Source: Granulimonas faecalis (GTDB taxonomy: Bacteria > Actinomycetota > Coriobacteriia > Coriobacteriales > Atopobiaceae). From it: DNA of 64,000 bases. Below, one piece after another: positions 652 to 35,796 of the stretch. The notes beneath the pieces are model-generated. The model worked only from the letters and a program-made list of their open reading frames with translations. It did no database searches and had not been told where the DNA came from. Each line of letters opens with the position of its first letter. Within the stretch, counting starts at the first letter, position 1. Location: assembly GCF_022834715.1 (NCBI RefSeq), contig NZ_BQKC01000002.1, positions 62,001 through 126,000 on the forward strand. Reading direction: 5' to 3'. A program made the translations under genes and the position numbers.

Positions 652-936
652 TCAGGGTGTCGCCCCCAGCACGCTTGCAGCCTTCTCCACGGCGGCCTCC
701 CTCATGAAGGCCGACTTCTTCACACCCAGGGCTTCCGCGGCCCGCGCTATGAGCTCGGCGGACGATTCCGGGCACTTGAACGAGAGGTTGGCATTGGGCT
801 CGTCAGACAGGCGAGGTCTCCCGGCACGGACCACCTCGAGGTGGCCGTCCCAGGTGCCGTCCTCCCACTCCCTTGCCCGGCGCTCGATCTCGTCGTCGGT
901 GAGGACATATCCGTTGTCAAGCAGGTACTCGGCCAT
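652..936 (-). CDS. Antitoxin, probable DNA-binding partner of the BrnT-like toxin
   Basis: This 94-residue protein starts at an ATG whose first base is the last base of the toxin stop codon (TGATG), which implies translational coupling. Residues 1-45 carry an acidic, helical segment (LTDDEIERRAREWEDGTW). The C-terminal half (NANLSFKCP, then an AEALGVKKSAFMREAA helix pair) resembles a ribbon-helix-helix fold of the CopG/BrnA kind. By analogy with BrnTA modules the antitoxin neutralises the upstream toxin and represses the shared promoter. An in-frame ATG six codons upstream exists, but the coupled start fits better. The family assignment is by pattern only. Confidence 0.65.
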   Translation of the reverse strand: MAEYLLDNGYVLTDDEIERRAREWEDGTWDGHLEVVRAGRPRLSDEPNANLSFKCPESSAELIARAAEALGVKKSAFMREAAVEKAASVLGATP

Positions 937-1211
937 CAGAGCTCCCTTCCGCATCTCTTCAACTCGTCTCGCGTCCTCTTGGACAAGGGTGTGTTCGCGT
1001 GGTAGATGATCCAACCCCCTTTGTAGGGGGCGGCGACCATCTCGACCTCGCGCCCTTTGTCGTCGAAGCCGACTCGCAGATACTCGGGCCAGTTCGGGCT
1101 TCCGACCCTTGCAGCCTCGACGAAGGCTGTGTCCCATGCCCTCCTCACGTCCTCCTCGGTAAGCTGCGGATGTCGCTCGAGAACTCTCGGGTGTACCTCC
1201 ACGTACTCCAA
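936..1211 (-). CDS. BrnT/RelE-like toxin
   Basis: This is a 91-residue protein in which the pattern WDTAFVEAARVGSPNWPEYL followed by GFDDKGREVEMV and GGWIIYHANTPLSK matches the BrnT-type RelE-fold ribonuclease toxins (central strand with GR.xE, then IYHA.P and a basic tail). I chose the TTG at 1211 because it has a ribosome site (ggagga) five bases upstream. The more distal TTG at 1253 overlaps the predicted -10 box and has no ribosome site. The gene order is toxin first, antitoxin second, as in BrnTA. The likely target is mRNA on ribosomes or free RNA, by family knowledge only. Confidence 0.6.
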   Translation of the reverse strand: MEYVEVHPRVLERHPQLTEEDVRRAWDTAFVEAARVGSPNWPEYLRVGFDDKGREVEMVAAPYKGGWIIYHANTPLSKRTRDELKRCGREL

Positions 1212-1249
1212 GCAATCCTCCAAGCACGACCGCGGAATCCTGTCTTTGG

Positions 1250-1289
1250 ACAATATTCTACTACTAAATCGATGTCAAACTCTCGACAT
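1250..1289 (-). promoter_or_regulatory. Promoter and operator of the BrnT-like toxin-antitoxin pair
   Basis: On the minus strand a perfect -35 (TTGACA, 1278-1273) lies 17 bases from a -10 (TATTGT, 1255-1250). An inverted repeat ATGTC/GACAT (arms 1272-1276 and 1285-1289) overlaps the -35, a typical place for autorepression by the antitoxin. Confidence 0.6.
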
Positions 1290-1703: not shown

Positions 1704-2705
1704 TCAGAGGGTATGGCGGAGGTCCGGCGGCGTACGGTCGATGACATCCTGTTCGGTGAGGGGTTTCCAGAGGCGCACAGCGTTCCCATACCTCCTCGCA
1801 CTGGCCTCCTTGGCCTTGATCTGGAGCCTCCTGAGGCCCTTCCCATCGACCATCTCCACGCCGGCGTCCCTAGCGAATTTCTTCGCCTCTGGTGTGAAGT
1901 AGCTCGTGGTGATGAACACCATGTGCTCGGCCCCTTCTGTGAAGTTGGCGCCTACGAGCTTCTGCACATCGGGGCGACCTACGGTGGTGTTCTTGCCGTA
2001 GAGCTTGCACTCCCCGATGGTCTTCTCCCCGTCCTTCTCCACCAGGAAGTCGAACCCGCCGTCGCCGGACCTACGCGTGGCCTCGCCGGTGTATCCGAGC
2101 TTACGGTAGAGGTAGACGCAGAATTGCTCGAACCGGTAGGGTTCTGACCGGTAGTGCGCGAAGACCTCGTCGGCCGACATGATGGGGAAGCCGTAGCTCG
2201 CGACGGAGCTATCCGAGCATGCCTTCTCCGACTCCCATCGGTGCGGGGTCACCTCTACACCGCCCACCCTCATCCTCTGGACGAACCTCACCGCCTCCCG
2301 CGGGGAGTCGAACGTCACGCGCCAAGGGCCGGAGACGAACTCGGAACCGCCGTAGTAGTAGGAGGTGGAGCTGTAGCGAGCGTCCCTCGTCCCGTCGTTT
2401 CGCGGGTGCTCCCAGTGGGGGAGCACGAGTTCATAGGCCGTGATGGCGTCGTTGTCGGGGTCGTAGTTGATCTCCTTGAACTCGTTGGGGTAGGGGACGG
2501 CGGGGAAGGACTCCTCCCACCGTTCGTGGAGGAACGCCTGGGTCTTGGCGCGCTCCTTCTCGGCGGCGGCCTCGCGCGAGGTCTCGACGACAGCCTTCAC
2601 GATGGTGACGACGAGCCATATGACGAGGCCGACGACGATGAAGACGACGAGCAGGAAGCCGATGAAGGTGTTGAACGCCAGGGCGAGCAGGGGAATGAAG
2701 GGCAA
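1704..2705 (-). CDS. Membrane-anchored Mrr-like restriction endonuclease
   Basis: 333 residues from a TTG start (aaagg site six bases upstream). Residues 5-37 form one hydrophobic helix (FIGFLLVVFIVVGLVIWLVV), followed by a charged helix. The C-terminal domain, roughly residues 195-310, matches the Mrr_cat PD-(D/E)XK fold: a helical lead FEQFCVYLYRKLGY, then GGFDFLVEKDGEKTIGECK, which supplies the catalytic D and ExK, and later VFITTSYFTPEAKKFA. Mrr-type enzymes cut modified or foreign DNA; the membrane anchor suggests action at the point of DNA entry. It lies downstream of the GIY-YIG gene and the MmeI-type enzyme on the same strand, so the three are probably one defence operon. Confidence 0.75.
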   Translation of the reverse strand: MPFIPLLALAFNTFIGFLLVVFIVVGLVIWLVVTIVKAVVETSREAAAEKERAKTQAFLHERWEESFPAVPYPNEFKEINYDPDNDAITAYELVLPHWEHPRNDGTRDARYSSTSYYYGGSEFVSGPWRVTFDSPREAVRFVQRMRVGGVEVTPHRWESEKACSDSSVASYGFPIMSADEVFAHYRSEPYRFEQFCVYLYRKLGYTGEATRRSGDGGFDFLVEKDGEKTIGECKLYGKNTTVGRPDVQKLVGANFTEGAEHMVFITTSYFTPEAKKFARDAGVEMVDGKGLRRLQIKAKEASARRYGNAVRLWKPLTEQDVIDRTPPDLRHTL

Positions 2706-2735
2706 CTCGGGCCTTTCTCTCGTGTCTCGGGAAGG

Positions 2736-3299
2736 TCAGCGGGCCTTGGAGCCGCCGCGGGTGCGGTTGTAGGAGCTCGTCGCGTCAAAGGCGGCGATGA
2801 GGGAGCGCTCGGTGGCGTTGAGGTCCGAAGGTGCGCAGCGGACCATGCGGACCTCCACGGGCTTTCCCGCACGAACGTCGGCATAGACGTCGCCGTTTCC
2901 GTGGCCGGTGAGGTGCGCCCTCACCCTCTGGGCCACATGGATGGACTGGCCTACGTAGACAGCCTCATAGGACACCTTGCCGGCCTCGTCGTAGACGGGA
3001 TCCGTCATGATCACGTAGCAGCCCGCCTCGTCGGTTGCCCCGTAGCCGAGGCCGGACCCCCGCCTCCCGATCCTCCAGTTCTCGAGGAACTCCTCCGCAG
3101 ACACCGGGGCCGCCTCCATGAGGGTGCGCCGGACCTCGTCCTGGCGGCGCCTGTTGGACACCTCCTGCCAGACGAGGATAGCGATGGTGAGGGCGAAGAG
3201 GACAAGAAGGACGGTGTTGATGGCCTGCTCGGTGGGCGTCGGGTGGGCCGGGAAGAACGCCTCCCAGATGTTTCGAAGCGTGCCCGTCAGTGTGCTCAT
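2736..3299 (-). CDS. Membrane protein with GIY-YIG-like nuclease domain
   Basis: 187 residues. A hydrophobic helix (INTVLLVLFALTIAILVW, about residues 27-44) anchors the protein. The rest carries a GIY-YIG-like core: GCYVIMTDP (first strand, GCYVI in place of GIYxI), EAVYVGQSIHVAQRVRAH (YVG plus the conserved Arg), and a late glutamate with asparagine and arginine (NATERSLIAAF). The ATG at 3299 overlaps the stop of the MmeI-type gene by four bases (ATGA), so translation is coupled. Together with the anchored Mrr-like protein it makes two membrane-tethered nucleases behind one restriction-methylation enzyme. The catalytic assignment is by motif only. Confidence 0.7.
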   Translation of the reverse strand: MSTLTGTLRNIWEAFFPAHPTPTEQAINTVLLVLFALTIAILVWQEVSNRRRQDEVRRTLMEAAPVSAEEFLENWRIGRRGSGLGYGATDEAGCYVIMTDPVYDEAGKVSYEAVYVGQSIHVAQRVRAHLTGHGNGDVYADVRAGKPVEVRMVRCAPSDLNATERSLIAAFDATSSYNRTRGGSKAR

Positions 3300-6193
3300 C
3301 GTTCCCCCTCTCTCACGGCTTCAGCGTAGAGCCCGAAAAGGTGGTTCACAATCCTCTCCTCGTCGCCGCCGAAGTCGACGCCGTAGGCCGCCTCGACGGC
3401 GGCGTCGAGGGAGTCATGGGCGGCCTTGAGGTCGGAGAACACGAAGCGGTCGAACTTCCTGGCCTGGGCGCCCGTCGCCCCCTCGGGCACAGGGGAGATG
3501 CCGTCGTACATCTCGGCGAGGGAGGAGTCGGGGTGCGCTGCCCTGGCGTCGAGCACCGCTTGGGCGCACCGCTCGACCTCGGACTTCTTGGATTCGTTTG
3601 GTGTTGGGAAGACGAAGGTGTTGTAGACGATGGTGTTGCTGTAGCTATAGTCGCTTTTGAGACGACCGCACGTCATGCGCATCCAGGCGTTGTGGAACCG
3701 GGACATGAGGACACCGAATAGGAAGAGGCTGCCGGTGGGGATGAAGTACAGCTTGTCCCCCGGGACCATGCCGTCGGTGACGAAGCCCATGGGGATGTAG
3801 GTGCGGTTCGCGGAAGTAACCTTGGGCACGCCGATGTAGGTGCCCTCGGGGTCCCTGACCTCGTCGAACAGCCACGGCGTGGCGGCCTTCTTCCTCGTGG
3901 CGGCCTTGGGGCTTGCCAGGCGGAAGTCCCGGACCTCCTTCACCCGCTCCTCGACCAGGGGCATGGAGGCGATGTCGTTAAGGGTCGCGTCCTTGAGCCA
4001 GAGGCATCGTCTCGCCTCGCCGTCGACGAAGTCCTTGCCCATGGAGAACGGCCTGATCCACCGGGCTGCCTCCGGCTCCGCATCCACGAGGCCGCGGGCC
4101 TCGTCATCGGTCATGATGAGGGACTTGCCCGTCGGCTGACACCCCCTCGACATCTCCGGCATCCCGCTGGCCTGCCTGGTGCTCTTGGTGACGAACCAGT
4201 CGGGGGCGGCCATGAGGTAGCCGTTGATGTTGTCGCAGAGGACGGCCTCGCCCTCCCGGGTCCGGTGGAGCACCCGGGGCTTTTCCCCCGTCTTGGAGAA
4301 CCCGACGATGACGACGTGGACGTGGGCCGGGTCGTCGGCCTCGCTGGACCAGAAGAACGTGGTCCAGGCGAAGTCGATGTGGAACCCTAAGGAGAAGAGG
4401 CGCCGCCACAGGGGCTCGACCTGCTGACCCTGGCAGATGGAGTTGGTGCTGACAAAGGCGGCCTTTATCGGTCCGTCACCCATGTACTCGGCCGCCTTCA
4501 AATACCAGCAGGCGACATAGTCCAGCACGCCGCCACCGGCGCCGAACAGGTCCTTGCGGTCCGCCTTCTGGATCGCGTCGAGGCGGTAGGACCCGAGGAA
4601 GGGAGGGTTGCCGCAGATGTGGGTGACCTTGTCAGACGAGACGACGTCGTTCCAGTCGATGCGCAGGGCGTTGGCGCAGACGATGCCCTCGTAGTCGTTG
4701 AGGGGGAGCGCCGGCCTCGTCACCGTGAGCACCTTCGAGGTGTCGCGGTCCGCCTGAATCTCCGCGATCCAGAGTGCGGTGCGTGCGACGCAACAGGCGT
4801 AGTCCTCCAGCTCGATGCCGTGGAAGTTGGCGAGCGAGACCTTCGGCTGCAGGTCCATGGCGTCCGAGAAGAGGCCGCCGGAGAACGCCGTCTGGTCTCC
4901 GGCACCTTTGCCCGTGTAGCTCAGTTCGAACAGGACCCTGTTCTCGAGGCGGCGCAGGCTCAGGTAGCTTTCGGTGAGGAAGTTGCCCGACCCGGCCGCC
5001 GGGTCGAGGACCGAAACGGCGGCGATCTCGTCCTGGAGGCTCAGGAGGGCCTTGGTCCTTGCACCGCCGGCCGTGTCCCTGTTGCAGGCGTCGACGAACT
5101 TCTCCTTGAGGTCATCCAGGAAAAGGGGGTCGATGACCCTGTGGATGGCTTCGGGCGTCGTGAAGTGCTGGCCGTTCCTTCGCCTGTGGTCGGGGGAGAG
5201 CGCTCCCTCGAAGATCGACCCGAACACGGTGGGGGAGACGCCGGACCAGTCGAACTCCTGGCATCCGTCGACGATCAGGGTGTGCCGGAAGTCCTCGTCC
5301 AGGGTGGGGATGGGGATCTTCTCGCGGAACAGGCCCCCGTTGACGTAGGGGAAGGCCCTGAGCTTCTCGGACGCATAGGGGTCCCTGTCCTCGGGCTTGG
5401 TGTCGAGCCAATCGAACAGCACCTTGAGGCCTGTCGAGAGGTTCTCGGGGCTCCACGACCTCACGTAGTCGCGGAAGGCGAGGTTATCCCGGACACCGTC
5501 CTTCTTGGCGGAGAGGAGGAGCCCCGCGTCCTCGGCGAACATCAGGAACATGAGCCTGGTCAGGAGCACCGACACGGCGTGTTGCACGGACGGTTTGGAG
5601 GTGTCTCCGTAGGCCCTCTCGGCGTGCTCGTGGAGTCGGCCCATGATGCGTCCGGCCTCGACCGACACCTCGCGGGCGAGGACCTCGGGCGGCTTGGCCT
5701 CCCCGGAGAGGAATCGGAGCACGTCGACCTGACGGGGCAGGTCCTCCAAGGGGATTCTGTAAAGGGGCTTGTCCGCCAGGGGGTTTCTCGCGGTGTCGTA
5801 GACCCACATCTCCTCGAAGTTGCATGCGATGAGGTAGCGGGGCCTCAGGGAGTAGGGGAACCCGTTGGCGTAGTCGCGAGCCTGTTCGGCTGGGGTCACC
5901 ATGCGCCCCTGGCGCATCTCCTTCTTGGCCAGGTCGACGCCCGACGATTTCATCTCGACGATGGTGGATGCGCTCGGGATGTGGACGTCGATGAAGCCCG
6001 AGCTGTCGGAGGCCAGGGTCTTGATGGGCACCTCGAACTGGAGGCGCTCGATGGCGTCGTCCAGGCCGAGCACGGTCTGGAACAGGTCGATCCAGAACGA
6101 CGACGCCTCGCCCTTCTCGTACCCGCGTCCGCTCCAGCGTCTCACGAACGCCTCGGCGTCCTTCCTCCTGTCCGTCCTGTCTGCCCTAGCCAT
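3296..6193 (-). CDS. MmeI-type (type IIL/IIG) restriction enzyme and DNA adenine methyltransferase
   Basis: 965 residues, the usual length of single-chain MmeI-family enzymes. Order seen: N-terminal nuclease core about residues 65-85 (FIDVHIPSASTIVEMKSSG, giving D and ExK); helical linker; methyltransferase motif I DPAAGSGNFL about 397-406; motif IV NPPF about 529-532; and a C-terminal target-recognition region with TYIGVPKVTSANRTYIPMG. In this family one chain both cuts and protects, methylating adenine on one strand of its site. It starts eight bases inside the small regulator gene upstream and overlaps the next gene by four bases, so it is the core of a four-gene operon. All catalytic motifs look intact. 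Confidence 0.85.
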   Translation of the reverse strand: MARADRTDRRKDAEAFVRRWSGRGYEKGEASSFWIDLFQTVLGLDDAIERLQFEVPIKTLASDSSGFIDVHIPSASTIVEMKSSGVDLAKKEMRQGRMVTPAEQARDYANGFPYSLRPRYLIACNFEEMWVYDTARNPLADKPLYRIPLEDLPRQVDVLRFLSGEAKPPEVLAREVSVEAGRIMGRLHEHAERAYGDTSKPSVQHAVSVLLTRLMFLMFAEDAGLLLSAKKDGVRDNLAFRDYVRSWSPENLSTGLKVLFDWLDTKPEDRDPYASEKLRAFPYVNGGLFREKIPIPTLDEDFRHTLIVDGCQEFDWSGVSPTVFGSIFEGALSPDHRRRNGQHFTTPEAIHRVIDPLFLDDLKEKFVDACNRDTAGGARTKALLSLQDEIAAVSVLDPAAGSGNFLTESYLSLRRLENRVLFELSYTGKGAGDQTAFSGGLFSDAMDLQPKVSLANFHGIELEDYACCVARTALWIAEIQADRDTSKVLTVTRPALPLNDYEGIVCANALRIDWNDVVSSDKVTHICGNPPFLGSYRLDAIQKADRKDLFGAGGGVLDYVACWYLKAAEYMGDGPIKAAFVSTNSICQGQQVEPLWRRLFSLGFHIDFAWTTFFWSSEADDPAHVHVVIVGFSKTGEKPRVLHRTREGEAVLCDNINGYLMAAPDWFVTKSTRQASGMPEMSRGCQPTGKSLIMTDDEARGLVDAEPEAARWIRPFSMGKDFVDGEARRCLWLKDATLNDIASMPLVEERVKEVRDFRLASPKAATRKKAATPWLFDEVRDPEGTYIGVPKVTSANRTYIPMGFVTDGMVPGDKLYFIPTGSLFLFGVLMSRFHNAWMRMTCGRLKSDYSYSNTIVYNTFVFPTPNESKKSEVERCAQAVLDARAAHPDSSLAEMYDGISPVPEGATGAQARKFDRFVFSDLKAAHDSLDAAVEAAYGVDFGGDEERIVNHLFGLYAEAVREGER

Positions 6194-6377
6194 GGTCGCG
6201 ACCCTCCCTGCGTGCCCTCTCCCGGGCCATCATGTCGCGGAACACCTCGGCCTTCGTCGAGGAGTCCTCCTCGGCCCACCGGGCAAGGTCCCGGTAGTCC
6301 GTCTCCAGCATGTTGATGAGACAGGCCTTGCGGGGCACGGCCTTCGGCCCCCGCCTGCCATCTGCCTTGGAATCCAA
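6186..6377 (-). CDS. Small ribbon-helix-helix-like regulator of the restriction operon
   Basis: A 63-residue basic protein. I chose the TTG at 6377: it has a strong site (aggggg) seven bases upstream, whereas the ATG at 6398 sits right behind the promoter -10 box with no ribosome site. The body (PRKACLINMLETDYRDLARWAEEDSSTKAEVFRDMMARE) fits a short strand followed by two helices, the ribbon-helix-helix layout. It overlaps the MmeI-type gene by eight bases. A controller role for expression of the restriction operon is inferred from position and fold only. Confidence 0.6.
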   Translation of the reverse strand: MDSKADGRRGPKAVPRKACLINMLETDYRDLARWAEEDSSTKAEVFRDMMARERARREGRDHG

Positions 6378-6404
6378 GACACACCCCCTAATTCTCATAT
6401 AACT

Positions 6405-6434
6405 ATTATATAGGAATTGCCCTCTCGATGAAAG
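6405..6434 (-). promoter_or_regulatory. Promoter of the restriction operon
   Basis: The minus strand carries an AT-rich -10 (tatataat, 6412-6405) in otherwise very GC-rich DNA, with a weak -35 (TTTCAT) about 17 bases upstream. It lies 28 bases before the TTG start at 6377. Confidence 0.5.
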
Positions 6435-8550: not shown

Positions 8551-8651
8551 TTGTCCCGCAAGATGCGTCTTTGGTATGATTCGATATGGTTTTCCTTGGG
8601 GTCGGGCCACAGGATGTCGTGGGGCAGGTGGGCTCGGGCACGACCTTTGGG
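8551..8651 (+). promoter_or_regulatory. Leader of CRISPR array 1
   Basis: About 100 bases before the first repeat that are closely similar to 10220-10323 ahead of array 2 (shared runs such as agatgcgtctttggtatgat and gggctcgggcacgacctttg). A promoter TTGTCC (8551-8556), 18 bases, TATGAT (8575-8580) can be read, which would transcribe the array rightwards. Confidence 0.75.
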
Positions 8652-9149
8652 GTCGCACCCCGCAGGGGTGCGTGTATTGAAACTGCAGTGAGACCGCCCG
8701 CCACAAGGTCGTTGAAAGTCGCACCCCGCAGGGGTGCGTGTATTGAAACCTTTGCAACAACGGACGTTGAGAACAAAACGATCGGTCGCACCCCGCAGGG
8801 GTGCGTGTATTGAAACCGAAAGGGTGCCGTCGGCCCCGCGCAGGACCTCCGTCGCACCCCGCAGGGGTGCGTGTATTGAAACATCAGCACCGATTCCGGC
8901 GTCCTGCCCTGGTGGGTCGTCGCACCCCGCAGGGGTGCGTGTATTGAAACCGGAGTTGAGGTGCCGCCGAAAAGTCGAATGGACCTCAGTCGCACCCCAC
9001 AGGGGTGCGTGTGTTGAAACACGCGGGGTAGTATGCGGCGAGGCCCACGGCGCCCCGTCTGTCGCACCCCGCAGGGGTGCGTGTGTTGAAACAGCAAATG
9101 GTCCTTAAGCGGTTGCCAAGCGGACGTCGCACCCCGCAGGGGTGCGTGG
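8652..9149 (+). CRISPR. Type I-C CRISPR array 1 (8 repeats, 7 spacers)
   Basis: 32-base repeats start at 8652, 8718, 8785, 8851, 8919, 8989 and 9061, with a truncated eighth at 9126. The repeat begins GTCGCACCCC and ends GTGTATTGAAAC, the classic I-C form with a palindromic stem. Repeats 6 and 7 end GTGTTGAAAC instead, and repeat 6 has one more change (CCAC). Spacers are 34, 35, 34, 36, 38, 40 and 33 bases. The degenerate end repeat marks the distal end, so the leader is on the left. It matches the I-C Cascade genes 24 kb downstream on this element. Confidence 0.95.
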
Positions 9150-10219: not shown

Positions 10220-10323
10220 CGATGTCCCGAAAGATGCGTCTTTGGTATGATTATCCATGGTTTCCCTTACGGCCGGGCCACGGGGTATCCTGAAGCAGAT
10301 GGGCTCGGGCACGACCTTTGGGA
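10220..10323 (+). promoter_or_regulatory. Leader of CRISPR array 2
   Basis: A diverged copy of the array 1 leader, with the same TATGAT box (10246-10251) and the same last 20 bases before the repeat except for one extra A next to it. It lies upstream of and divergent from the lipoprotein gene. Confidence 0.7.
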
Positions 10324-10609
10324 GTCGCACCCCTCAGGGGTGCGTGTATTGAAACGATGACCGAAGCTCACGCAAGTACACTCGGTTTGTCGCACCTCGC
10401 AAGGGTGCGTGTGTTGAAACGTTGGTTCTGAGGACTCCGCCGCTGCCGTCAAGGTCGCACCCCGCGGGGGTGCGTGTGTTGAAACCAAAATAAAACATGT
10501 CAAGCGTAAACGGGGTCAGTCGCACCCCGCAGGGGTGCGTGTGTTGAAATTTGACCCGTCAGGCCGCCAACGACCTGATCATCCCGTCGCACACCTCAGG
10601 GGTGCGTGG
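10324..10609 (+). CRISPR. Type I-C CRISPR array 2 (5 repeats, 4 spacers)
   Basis: Repeats start at 10324, 10389, 10454 and 10519, with a truncated fifth at 10586. The repeats are of the same family as array 1 but more mutated: repeat 1 has CCCTCAGGGG in the loop, repeat 2 CCTCGCAAGG, repeat 3 CCCCGCGGGG, and repeat 4 ends in T. Spacers are 33, 33, 33 and 35 bases and none is shared with array 1. The degeneracy suggests an older, less active array. Confidence 0.93.
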
Positions 10610-32522: not shown

Positions 32523-33182
32523 GTGGCCCAAGGTTTCATGGTCCGTCTCAGGGGCCCCATGGCCCTGTTCACCCGACCGGAGTTCAAGGTCGAGCGCTAC
32601 AGCTACGACGTCCCCACGCCGAGCGCCCTGGCCGGCGCCCTGGCCTCCATCTACCTCCACCCCGGCATCGAGTGGCAGGTGGAGCGCTACTGGGTCCTGA
32701 ACGAGATACGCCGCCAGTCCGTGGCGGTGAAGGAGGTCTCCTCCAAGGCGAGCTCCGCGAAGGTGCTCCAGGCGGCCAAGGGCAAAGGCCCCATGCCCAG
32801 AGTGGGGGTGGGGGAGGCCCGCCAGATCCGGTGCACGTCGCGCCTCGTGGACGTCGACTACGTGGTCCAGTGCCGCTTCTCCATCACGGACGGCACCGAC
32901 TCCAGGGCCAAGCGCGCCAAGATCGCGTCCATCGTCGATAGGCGCCTCCGGCGCGGCCAGTGCTACCAGCAGCCCTACCTCGGCGTGCGGGAGCACCCCT
33001 GCTCCTTCTCGGCCTGGGAAGGGGGCGTGCCCGAGGGCCACTACTCCCAGTGCGGCCCCGTGGACCTCGGCCTCGTGTTCTGCGGCATGGACCGCACGGA
33101 CCCCGCCGTGGACCGTCCCCGGTTCTTCCGCGCGGTCATGGACCGCGGGTGCGTCGAGGTGGCTGGAAGGGAGGTGGTCTAG
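32523..33182 (+). CDS. cas5c: Cas5c (Cas5d), type I-C crRNA-processing protein
   Basis: 219 residues, the usual size. N-terminal RAMP strand with FMVRLRGPMALFTRPEFKVE and SYDVPTPSALAGALASIYLHP, characteristic of I-C Cas5, and a late glycine-rich YLGVREHPCSF. In type I-C this protein replaces Cas6: it cuts the precursor RNA at the base of the repeat stem and stays on the 5' handle of the guide. The repeats in arrays 1 and 2 have the matching stem and ATTGAAAC handle. First gene of the operon; cas3, which normally precedes it, is absent. Confidence 0.95.
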   Translation: MAQGFMVRLRGPMALFTRPEFKVERYSYDVPTPSALAGALASIYLHPGIEWQVERYWVLNEIRRQSVAVKEVSSKASSAKVLQAAKGKGPMPRVGVGEARQIRCTSRLVDVDYVVQCRFSITDGTDSRAKRAKIASIVDRRLRRGQCYQQPYLGVREHPCSFSAWEGGVPEGHYSQCGPVDLGLVFCGMDRTDPAVDRPRFFRAVMDRGCVEVAGREVV

Positions 33183-34838
33183 GTGCTCCTGGAAGACCTG
33201 GTGAGGCTCCACGGGGAGCTCGTCTCCCGCGGGGCCGCCGTGGCCCCCGCCGGCATGGCGTGGCGGAAGGTCCGCGGGCGCGTCGCCATCGACCCCGCAG
33301 GAAGGCTCCTGGGGATCCTTCCCGGCGACTACTCCGGGGACGAACCCGCGGAGACCCTGGCGCCGGCGCCCCCGGTGAGGTCCGCCAACATCGCCGCGGC
33401 CCTGCTCTGCGACACGGCCGCCTACCTCCTCGGCTTCTCGCCCAAGGGCGACGCCCGGGCCGCCGAGAAGTTCGAGGCGTCCCGGAGGCTCCATCGCGAG
33501 GCCCTCGAGGGCGTGGCCGAGGCGGCGCCCCTGCTGGCGTTTCTCGACTCCTGGGACCCCGCCCGGGCGCCGTCCGTGACGGCCGTCGCCGAGAGCCCCG
33601 TGGACCTTAACATGGCCCTCCTCGAGTTCTGCCTGGTGGACGCCGACGGCGCCGTCCGCGACCTCCTGGACACGGAGGGCGTCAGAGAGGCCCTGGAGAG
33701 GCGCTCCTCAGAGAGGGGCGGCGGCGCCTACACGGACCTGGTCACAGGCGAGCCCTGCGAGCCCTTAAGGGTGCACCCCAAGGCCCCGGCCCTCGCGGGG
33801 CCCGGGGAGAAGGCGGCGCCGGTCGTGGGCTGCAACATCGAGAGCGCCGAGTCCTGGGGCGCCTCCCAGGGCTACCTGTCGCCCATGGCCCGTCCCACGG
33901 CCGAGCGCTACTCGGCGGCCCTGGACTGGCTCCTGAAGGATGGGTGCCACAGCCTGTGTCTCGGCGAGGCCACCTTCGCCTGGTGGGCCGACGGCGAGGC
34001 CGACGGGACCGTGGCGCCGGCCGTGGCCGACGCCCTCCGGGGCTCGGGGGCGGCCGACGTGGACGCCGACGCCGGGTGCGCGCCCCTCCACATGGCCTGC
34101 CTCTCCTCGAGGTACGCACGGGTGCAGCTCCGCTGGTACGAAACCGTCACCTGGGAAGACGCCAGGGACTCCCTGGGGCGGTGGGAGGGTTGCTTCGGCG
34201 GGAGGGTCCCGTCGGCCTTCTCGATCCTCCGGGCCCTGGAGAGGCCGGGGGAGAAGGCCCCGGCCACCCGCTGCCAGGACGCCGCCTCCCTGGTGGGCGC
34301 CCTGATCATGGGAGGCCCCTGGCCGAGGACCCTGACCCAGAGGGCGGCCGCCATGGCGTCCGCGGGAGACATCGGCCCCACGGTGGCCGGCACCCTGGCG
34401 GCCTCGGCCCTGTCGACACGAAAGGAGTCGGGAATGGAGACCGACGACCTGCTCTGCCCCGCCGACCCCGCCTACCGGGCCGGCTGCATCTTCGCCATCC
34501 TGGAGGGCCTCCAGAAGGCCGCCCAGGGGCGCCTGGCCGCCCCGGTGAGGACCCGCTACATGGCCGGGGCCGCCAAGAGCCCCGTCCGGGTGCTGCCGAC
34601 GCTCGTCGCCACCGCCCAGGCCCACCTGAAGAAGCTCTCCCGGACCAAGCCGGGGCTCGCCGCCTTCTACGAGTCGGCGCTTTCCGAGGCCGTGGCCGCG
34701 GGGCCCGTGCCCCTCACCATGGACGCTGCGGCCTCCTGGCGCTTCTACGTCGGCTACTACCGCCAGCGTGACCAGCTCTACCGCCCCGCCGGCGACGGCG
34801 CCGACCCGGAGGCGGAGGAGGAGGTGCGCGCGGACTAG
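33183..34838 (+). CDS. cas8c: Cas8c (Csd1), large subunit of type I-C Cascade
   Basis: 551 residues from a GTG directly after the cas5 stop. Matches Csd1 in order: GDYSGDEPAETL near residue 50, SANIAAALLCDTAAYLLGFS, GCNIESAESWGASQGYLSPM with AERYSAALDWLL (about 217-255), and the helical C-terminus. Cas8c recognises the PAM and opens the target. The length is slightly below many Csd1 proteins. An internal start gives Cas11c. Confidence 0.93.
   Translation: MLLEDLVRLHGELVSRGAAVAPAGMAWRKVRGRVAIDPAGRLLGILPGDYSGDEPAETLAPAPPVRSANIAAALLCDTAAYLLGFSPKGDARAAEKFEASRRLHREALEGVAEAAPLLAFLDSWDPARAPSVTAVAESPVDLNMALLEFCLVDADGAVRDLLDTEGVREALERRSSERGGGAYTDLVTGEPCEPLRVHPKAPALAGPGEKAAPVVGCNIESAESWGASQGYLSPMARPTAERYSAALDWLLKDGCHSLCLGEATFAWWADGEADGTVAPAVADALRGSGAADVDADAGCAPLHMACLSSRYARVQLRWYETVTWEDARDSLGRWEGCFGGRVPSAFSILRALERPGEKAPATRCQDAASLVGALIMGGPWPRTLTQRAAAMASAGDIGPTVAGTLAASALSTRKESGMETDDLLCPADPAYRAGCIFAILEGLQKAAQGRLAAPVRTRYMAGAAKSPVRVLPTLVATAQAHLKKLSRTKPGLAAFYESALSEAVAAGPVPLTMDAAASWRFYVGYYRQRDQLYRPAGDGADPEAEEEVRAD
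34434..34838 (+). CDS. cas11c: Cas11c, made from an internal start in cas8c
   Basis: Within cas8c and in the same frame, an ATG at 34434 is preceded by aaaggag with 6 bases spacing. It would give 134 residues (starting METDDLLCPADPAYRAGC), all helical, the size of the small subunit known to be produced by internal initiation in type I-C systems. This completes the Cascade set. Assigned from the internal ribosome site and family knowledge. Confidence 0.75.
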   Translation: METDDLLCPADPAYRAGCIFAILEGLQKAAQGRLAAPVRTRYMAGAAKSPVRVLPTLVATAQAHLKKLSRTKPGLAAFYESALSEAVAAGPVPLTMDAAASWRFYVGYYRQRDQLYRPAGDGADPEAEEEVRAD

Positions 34839-34908
34839 GGCCCCACTCCCGCACCGCCCCGAAACGACGGAAGGCCCCACCACACGTTTTCCCCAAGGAG
34901 GACCACCC

Positions 34909-35796
34909 ATGGACAATACCCTGGACCGCCGCATCGAGTTCGTCGCCTACCTCGATGTGGAGCTCGGCAACCCCAACGGCGACCCCGACGCCGGAAACCG
35001 CCCCCGCCAGCTCGACGACGGCCGCGGCATCGTCACCGACGTGTGCCTGAAGCGCAAGGTCCGCGACCGCATCGCCCTGGAGCACAGCGGCGAGGAGGGC
35101 TTCGACCTGTACATCGAGCCCACGGGGACCCTGAACTCCAAGGACGAGCGCGGCTTCGAGGCCGTGCTCGGGGCCGGGGTCGACCTCAAGGGGCTCAGGA
35201 AGAGCGACCCCGACGCGGCCCTGCGGGTCCGCGACGCCATGTGCCGCACCTACTTCGACGTGCGCTGCTTCGGCGCCGTCATGACCACCTTCGCCAAGAA
35301 CAACCTGGCCGGCGGCCAGGTGCGCGGCCCCGTGCAGCTGTCCTTCGCCGTCTCGGCCGACCCGGTGTTTCCCGAGGGGCAGACCCTCACCCGCCAGGCG
35401 GTGACCACGGAGGCCGACCGCGAGAAGAAGACCTCCGAGATGGCCGTCAAGTGGGTCGTACCCTACGGCCTCTACCGCGTCTCGGGCTTCGTCTCCCCGG
35501 CCCGGGCCAGAGACACCGGCTTCACCTGGGAGGACTGGGACGCCTTCGTCGGGGCGTTCCGCCGCATGTTCTGGGAGGACCGCAGCGCGAGCCGCCCCTC
35601 CATGAGGCTCCGCACCCTGACCTGCTTCACGCACCCCAACGCCCTGGGGGTGTGCGCCGCCGAGGCCAACCTGGAGCGCGTCTCGGCGTCCCTCAAGGAG
35701 GGCGTGGACATCCCGACGTCCTTCGGCGACTACGTCGTGGAGGCCGACGGCGAGGGCCTGCCCGAGGGCGTCGAGATGGTCCACGAGGTGCTCTAG
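34909..35796 (+). CDS. cas7c: Cas7c (Csd2), backbone subunit of type I-C Cascade
   Basis: 295 residues, ATG 34909 behind aaggagg, 70 bases after cas8c. The N-terminal signature is unmistakable: VELGNPNGDPDAGNRPR, then DDGRGIVTDVCLKRKVRD. The middle FDVRCFGAVMTTFAKNN and RGPVQLSFA continue the Csd2 pattern. Several copies would coat the guide RNA. The frame is intact. After cas7 a normal locus carries cas4-cas1-cas2; here a secreted nuclease gene follows instead. Confidence 0.95.
   Translation: MDNTLDRRIEFVAYLDVELGNPNGDPDAGNRPRQLDDGRGIVTDVCLKRKVRDRIALEHSGEEGFDLYIEPTGTLNSKDERGFEAVLGAGVDLKGLRKSDPDAALRVRDAMCRTYFDVRCFGAVMTTFAKNNLAGGQVRGPVQLSFAVSADPVFPEGQTLTRQAVTTEADREKKTSEMAVKWVVPYGLYRVSGFVSPARARDTGFTWEDWDAFVGAFRRMFWEDRSASRPSMRLRTLTCFTHPNALGVCAAEANLERVSASLKEGVDIPTSFGDYVVEADGEGLPEGVEMVHEVL

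Follow-up and report, generated by a model that had tools for sequence, protein, structure and literature searches.

Membrane-anchored GIY-YIG defence has already been described in the form of SNIPE, a membrane nuclease that cleaves the DNA of phages as it is injected and becomes toxic to its host once the anchor is removed (PMC13190303). For restriction enzymes that also methylate, the crystal structure of MmeI (PDB 5hr4) and its catalytic residues D70, E80 and K82 provide a reference (PMC4833311). Additionally, a plasmid that carries BREX together with the type IV enzyme BrxU provides a case in which the methylating system and the additional nuclease complement each other (PMC8565348). The locus analysed here places an MmeI-type gene directly upstream of genes for two putative membrane nucleases.

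The operon and its contig

The window, that is, the whole 64,000-nt stretch of DNA that was analysed, lies on a contig of 146,863 bp in an Atopobiaceae genome. The features of the operon, in the order of transcription, are as follows.

6405..6410, minus strand: TATAAT, possible -10 element of an operon promoter (read from the sequence; tentative)
6186..6398, minus strand: small RHH-like protein, possible controller, 63-70 aa; the ORF overlaps the MmeI-type gene by 8 nt
3296..6193, minus strand: MmeI-type (type IIL) restriction endonuclease-methyltransferase, 965 aa (P0003; Pfam, PADLOC and 5hr4 alignment)
2736..3299, minus strand: membrane-anchored GIY-YIG protein, 187 aa, with a TM helix at 26-44 and a nuclease domain at about 93-180 (P0002; hydropathy, weak Pfam match and conserved residues)
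1704..2705, minus strand: membrane-stalked Mrr-type nuclease, 333 aa, TTG start, with a helix at 3-66, a middle beta domain at about 70-150 and Mrr_cat at about 187-298 (P0001; Mrr_cat match and AlphaFold2)

The four ORFs (1704-6398) were all recovered by codon-based gene calling. After the 8-nt overlap of the first two, the MmeI-type and GIY-YIG genes share 4 nt (ATGA), and a gap of 30 nt precedes the Mrr-type gene. The two short overlaps suggest translational coupling, and the operon genes are presumably cotranscribed. Catalytic motifs look intact in the MmeI-type, GIY-YIG and Mrr-type proteins. The TATAAT at 6410-6405 lies just before the first ORF, and position 6412, at which the preliminary description had ended the operon, is just upstream of it. 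Its role as a -10 element is tentative, since a consensus promoter and terminator scan, itself uninformative here, reported no promoter at that place.

The preliminary description had listed a regulator, an MmeI-type restriction-methyltransferase, a membrane GIY-YIG protein and a membrane Mrr-like protein on one strand, three of them overlapping. Strand, place, gene order and predicted membrane anchoring proved right, the overlap of three genes is exact, and the last three identities agree with the evidence given below. The regulator is plausible but unproven: the ORF is present and has an RHH-like pattern, judged by eye only, but the protein matched no Pfam, PADLOC, NCBIfam or PHROG family. 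It may begin at an ATG at the 6398 end or, as is more likely, at a TTG at 6377 that has the better upstream sequence, AGGGGG.

The 965-aa protein contains all five MmeI Pfam domains (MmeI_N, hel, Mtase, TRD and C; E values of 5e-81, 8e-66, 5e-29, 4e-14 and 8e-14), matches the PADLOC type IIG model (E 2e-285) and aligns over nearly its full length with the MmeI structure 5hr4 (E 2e-150). Its residues D69, E80 and K82 align with the catalytic D70/E80/K82 of MmeI, and methyltransferase motifs I (LDPAAGSGNFL) and IV (NPPF) are kept. On the domains, the PADLOC match, the structural alignment and the catalytic D/E/K taken together, the protein is by sequence a full type IIL enzyme.

Hydropathy predicts a single TM helix in P0002 (26-44), after which come an Arg-rich segment and a domain of the GIY-YIG type. 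Its match to the Pfam GIY-YIG model is weak (E 0.002, below Pfam's cut-off) and is backed by GIY-YIG-type residues that are invariant in 8 relatives (G93, Y115-VG, R125, H129, E164 and N178); one relative (L064) passes the cut-off. The structure model (pLDDT 71) was too poor for a fold search, which returned no structural match. In its closest relative (58%; G102, L054 1-2400), the gene is followed by those for a 255-aa membrane zinc-ribbon protein and an 'MSRTIDERK' protein, and the same two proteins also follow an MmeI-type gene in another genome (G095, L184).

P0001 begins with 35 hydrophobic residues and has a clear Mrr_cat match (E 3e-27). AlphaFold2, run with 22 sequences (pLDDT 91), predicts one helix from 3 to 66, a middle domain that is ordered and rich in beta strands, and a PD-(D/E)XK domain that matches AF1548 (1y88, Z 14.9), MspJI (Z 13.1) and AspBHI (Z 12.2). 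D219, E232-C-K234 and Q248 are invariant in 22 relatives. No match was reported in the structure search for the middle domain, which was modelled only as part of the whole protein; across the family it carries the motif P-W-x-x-A-x-x-D-G-x-x-D-x-R. All 22 members of this TM-Mrr family match a PADLOC PDC-S02 model, and these matches centre on the nuclease half. Both P0001 and P0002 are predicted to be anchored in the membrane and would be expected to act as nucleases.

The contig itself looks like a conjugative megaplasmid of 147 kb. It encodes a TraG/VirD4 coupling protein, a topoisomerase, a ParM-like actin and a DNA polymerase III beta clamp (all from Pfam), and an SSB gene was recognised by eye. 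A comparison of its ends revealed no overlap, leaving circularity unproven, and the operon region had no close match in the plasmid collection. Other mobile or defence genes on the contig include CRISPR I-C, toxin-antitoxin and TnpB genes. The type I-C Cascade genes for Cas5d, Cas8c/Csd1 and Cas7 lie at 32538-35796 (plus strand) of the window, and I-C-like repeats at 8651-9111 and 10323-10569. Neither Cas3_HD nor Cas1 was matched anywhere in the 96%-complete genome, and the set is possibly a CRISPR effector that is devoid of both nuclease and adaptation genes. Just downstream of the operon, at 652-1253 (minus strand), are genes for an RHH protein and a DUF433/DUF4258-like protein, likely a toxin-antitoxin pair; a similar-looking pair lies upstream of MmeI in another genome (G129, L092).

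Occurrence of the gene set and of its parts

The exact four-gene set was found nowhere else among 140 genomes of the family, 346 of the phylum (searched with P0002), 397 of the order (searched with the MmeI-type protein), 44 TM-Mrr loci, plasmids, phages and IMG/VR. For lack of a second such locus in these searches, a fixed defence system of four genes was rejected. Relatives of the single proteins are more widely distributed: within the 140 family genomes, the window's own included, they occur in 28 (P0002), 25 (P0001) and 29 (P0003). A P0002 relative and an MmeI-type gene occur together in 6 genomes and are adjacent in 2, namely the window genome and G079, the latter from a second genus. The rough chance estimate for two such adjacent pairs in 6 genomes is 6e-5, on the assumption of random gene order, which defence islands violate. 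In G079 the frame downstream of MmeI encodes two hydrophobic segments, one TAA and then the GIY-YIG domain; this gene appears to be either a broken copy or a sequence error, because homology to a membrane GIY-YIG protein runs across the single stop into the TM region.

In the phylum sample (346 genomes), P0002 relatives were confined to the same order. One copy is in a prophage: in an IMG/VR contig (L106, 4803-5471), the membrane GIY-YIG gene is flanked by ORFs that, judged by eye, resemble terminase and portal genes and are on the opposite strand, and an Atopobiaceae genome has the same arrangement (L063, 8337-9005; 91% identical). Superinfection-exclusion genes typically sit in such a place, and the prophage copy would be a candidate for one.

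The TM-Mrr family (L108-L145), defined by a membrane stalk, the middle domain and an Mrr nuclease, was found at 44 loci in public genomes, mostly of gut Clostridia and Coriobacteriia. Some members have housekeeping genes as conserved neighbours (L110/L145, L112/L131). An MmeI-type or P0002-like gene was found near none of the 44 (within up to 6 kb on each side). The plasmid database yielded no GIY-YIG (P0002) match and only domain-level matches for Mrr; its MmeI-like matches were on Bifidobacterium megaplasmids, and in the one inspected, pMP7017, the annotated MmeI neighbours did not include the nucleases. No relatives of the MmeI-type or Mrr proteins were detected in IMG/VR by a scan for short exact patterns, which would miss distant ones.

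The four genes had been proposed to form a composite system, an idea that would be refuted if the anchored nucleases were mostly found without the MmeI-type gene. This was the case for both families: the TM-Mrr gene lacks an MmeI-type neighbour at 44/44 loci and the membrane GIY-YIG gene is beside MmeI in only 2 of the 28 Atopobiaceae genomes that have it. Therefore, a dedicated four-gene system is not supported. A looser version survives, in which the pairing of MmeI with a membrane GIY-YIG gene recurs in a second genus and a second nuclease often follows MmeI-type genes of Coriobacteriales.

A second restriction nuclease is encoded directly downstream of the MmeI-type gene at 17 of 52 Coriobacteriales loci (L074-L103, L156-L190), counting either the gene that immediately follows or, where two genes form a tight pair, the latter of the two, and assigning families by Pfam. 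These are GmrSD (6), Mrr (4), HNH/EndoVII-like (2), YhcG (2), GIY-YIG (2, one of them that of the window) and EC042_2821 (1). Upstream, by comparison, none of the tight neighbours at the 52 loci is a restriction nuclease (Fisher p 3e-6). Since the tally was made by hand and the loci are phylogenetically non-independent, this enrichment is a lead rather than proof. Together with the MmeI-then-membrane GIY-YIG order in a second genus, the 17/52 loci argue against pure accident.

Competing interpretations of the operon

The operon appears best explained by an MmeI-type gene that gained nucleases in an often-filled slot, both of which here happen to be membrane proteins. It would then be a plasmid-borne, modular restriction operon with membrane-tethered add-on nucleases that probably cut DNA near its entry, as SNIPE does, a reading to which a probability of about 0.5 is given. 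Its core would be a self-sufficient type IIL enzyme that methylates adenine at its site, cuts unmethylated DNA some 20 nt away and could both protect and restrict alone. The two add-ons would fill the position downstream of MmeI that often holds a second restriction nuclease in Coriobacteriales, and both would be held by their anchors at the cytoplasmic side of the cell membrane, from where they would probably cleave the DNA of phages or plasmids near the point at which it enters. By analogy with SNIPE, for which this has been demonstrated, the tether would keep them off the host nucleoid, and they might act on DNA in which the MmeI-type site is missing or masked.

The order of the genes, their domains, the predicted anchors and the conserved catalytic residues can be read from the sequence; the anchors consist of the P0002 helix with its Arg-rich flank on the nuclease side and the continuous helical stalk 3-66 of P0001. 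Co-expression, nuclease activity and a division of labour are presumed, and action on DNA as it enters, as the preliminary description suggested, is plausible in the light of SNIPE (PMC13190303). The modular reading is favoured by the co-directional, overlapping genes, the intact catalytic motifs of the three enzymes, the predicted anchors, the nucleases downstream of MmeI at 17/52 loci, the second MmeI and membrane GIY-YIG pair in G079, the prophage-borne GIY-YIG relative, the conjugative-plasmid-like setting, and the precedents of SNIPE and of BREX with BrxU. Several observations count against it: the full set occurs once, TM-Mrr is never with MmeI elsewhere (0/44), the G079 copy is interrupted by a stop, and the GIY-YIG assignment of P0002 is below Pfam's cut-off, with a model pLDDT of 71. 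A broader version is doubtful, namely that type IIL operons possess a slot into which a second nuclease can be plugged, and that this slot holds membrane-tethered nucleases on some plasmids, giving a two-layer barrier of cytoplasmic, sequence-specific restriction and entry-site cleavage in which the tether protects self DNA.

The strongest competitor, though rather unlikely, is a chance pile-up in a plasmid defence region of an ordinary type IIL restriction-modification gene and two unrelated membrane nucleases, each working alone. Such an origin would suit a singleton set, nuclease families that are mostly without MmeI, and a plasmid that also carries CRISPR I-C, toxin-antitoxin and TnpB. However, the 4-nt and 8-nt overlaps, which suggest translational coupling, the recurrence of MmeI with a membrane GIY-YIG gene in another genus, and the enrichment of nucleases in the downstream slot speak against it.

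At the other extreme, the four genes could encode one integrated machine, in which methylation by MmeI guides or licenses the tethered nucleases, with the Mrr-type protein reading the methyl state at the membrane and MmeI providing self/non-self information. The structural closeness of the Mrr domain to the modification-dependent MspJI and AspBHI, as well as the overlapping genes, are consistent with this. Nevertheless, the MmeI-type protein is a complete enzyme by itself, the nucleases occur without MmeI elsewhere and no shared or interaction domain was found, which makes the idea improbable. Equally remote is the suggestion that the membrane nucleases serve DNA processing at the membrane, such as uptake, recycling or host-plasmid transfer, instead of defence: several TM-Mrr and TM-GIY-YIG genes do occupy conserved places among housekeeping genes, but a GIY-YIG copy is carried by a prophage and the context here is a restriction operon.

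If the tethered nucleases of the modular operon work with the restriction-modification enzyme, then recognition of self through methylation and protection of self through localisation at the membrane, so far described apart, would be joined. The enriched slot downstream of MmeI-type genes would offer a simple route to further partner nucleases, and the stalked Mrr proteins, which are frequent in gut Clostridia and Coriobacteriia, would be candidate entry nucleases in their own right.

Comparison with described systems

In comparison to SNIPE and PD-lambda-1 (PMC13190303, PMC9519451), P0002 has the same single-pass anchor and cytoplasmic GIY-YIG domain, with an expected N-out/C-in topology; the N-terminal TM helix is predicted and the GIY-YIG score is below Pfam's cut-off. 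However, SNIPE has DUF4041 between anchor and nuclease, whereas P0002 had no Pfam match to it at E<=0.1, and the stretch from its TM helix to its nuclease domain, about 50 residues, is too short to hold it. Membership in SNIPE was rejected on the absence of DUF4041.

P0001 shares the Mrr_cat nuclease domain, with D...ExK intact (E 3e-27; D219, E232 and K234 invariant), with Mrr, the PADLOC PDC-S02 candidates, MspJI and AspBHI. Mrr has the winged helix Mrr_N, which was not matched in P0001, where a membrane stalk and another middle domain are found instead. Zorya also combines a membrane component with an Mrr-like nuclease (ZorD), but its ZorA/ZorB motor and helicase are absent among the four proteins; ZorA/B had no PADLOC matches there, and ZorD matches were limited to the Mrr domain. 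For DISARM, DrmA/B/C were not matched in the other three proteins, and the DrmMI profiles match the MmeI-type protein far more weakly than the type IIG ones do. Both Zorya and DISARM were rejected because their partners are absent among the four proteins.

The MmeI-type protein belongs by sequence to MmeI and the type IIL enzymes, whose five domains it has in one chain, together with the PD-ExK motif and those of a gamma-class N6A methyltransferase; MmeI works without a partner, whereas here two membrane nucleases accompany the enzyme. The BREX and BrxU plasmid (PMC8565348) likewise has a methylating system beside a type IV restriction nuclease, the two being complementary in spectrum; the operon described here differs in having a type IIL enzyme of a single protein at its core and predicted membrane-tethered partners. 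The preliminary description knew of no described system with this combination, which stands for the exact set, found nowhere else, but not for its parts, each of which is known elsewhere. The preliminary observation is confirmed and its interpretation is partly supported: the locus is best read as a modular restriction operon whose partner nucleases are unusual in being, by prediction, tethered to the membrane.
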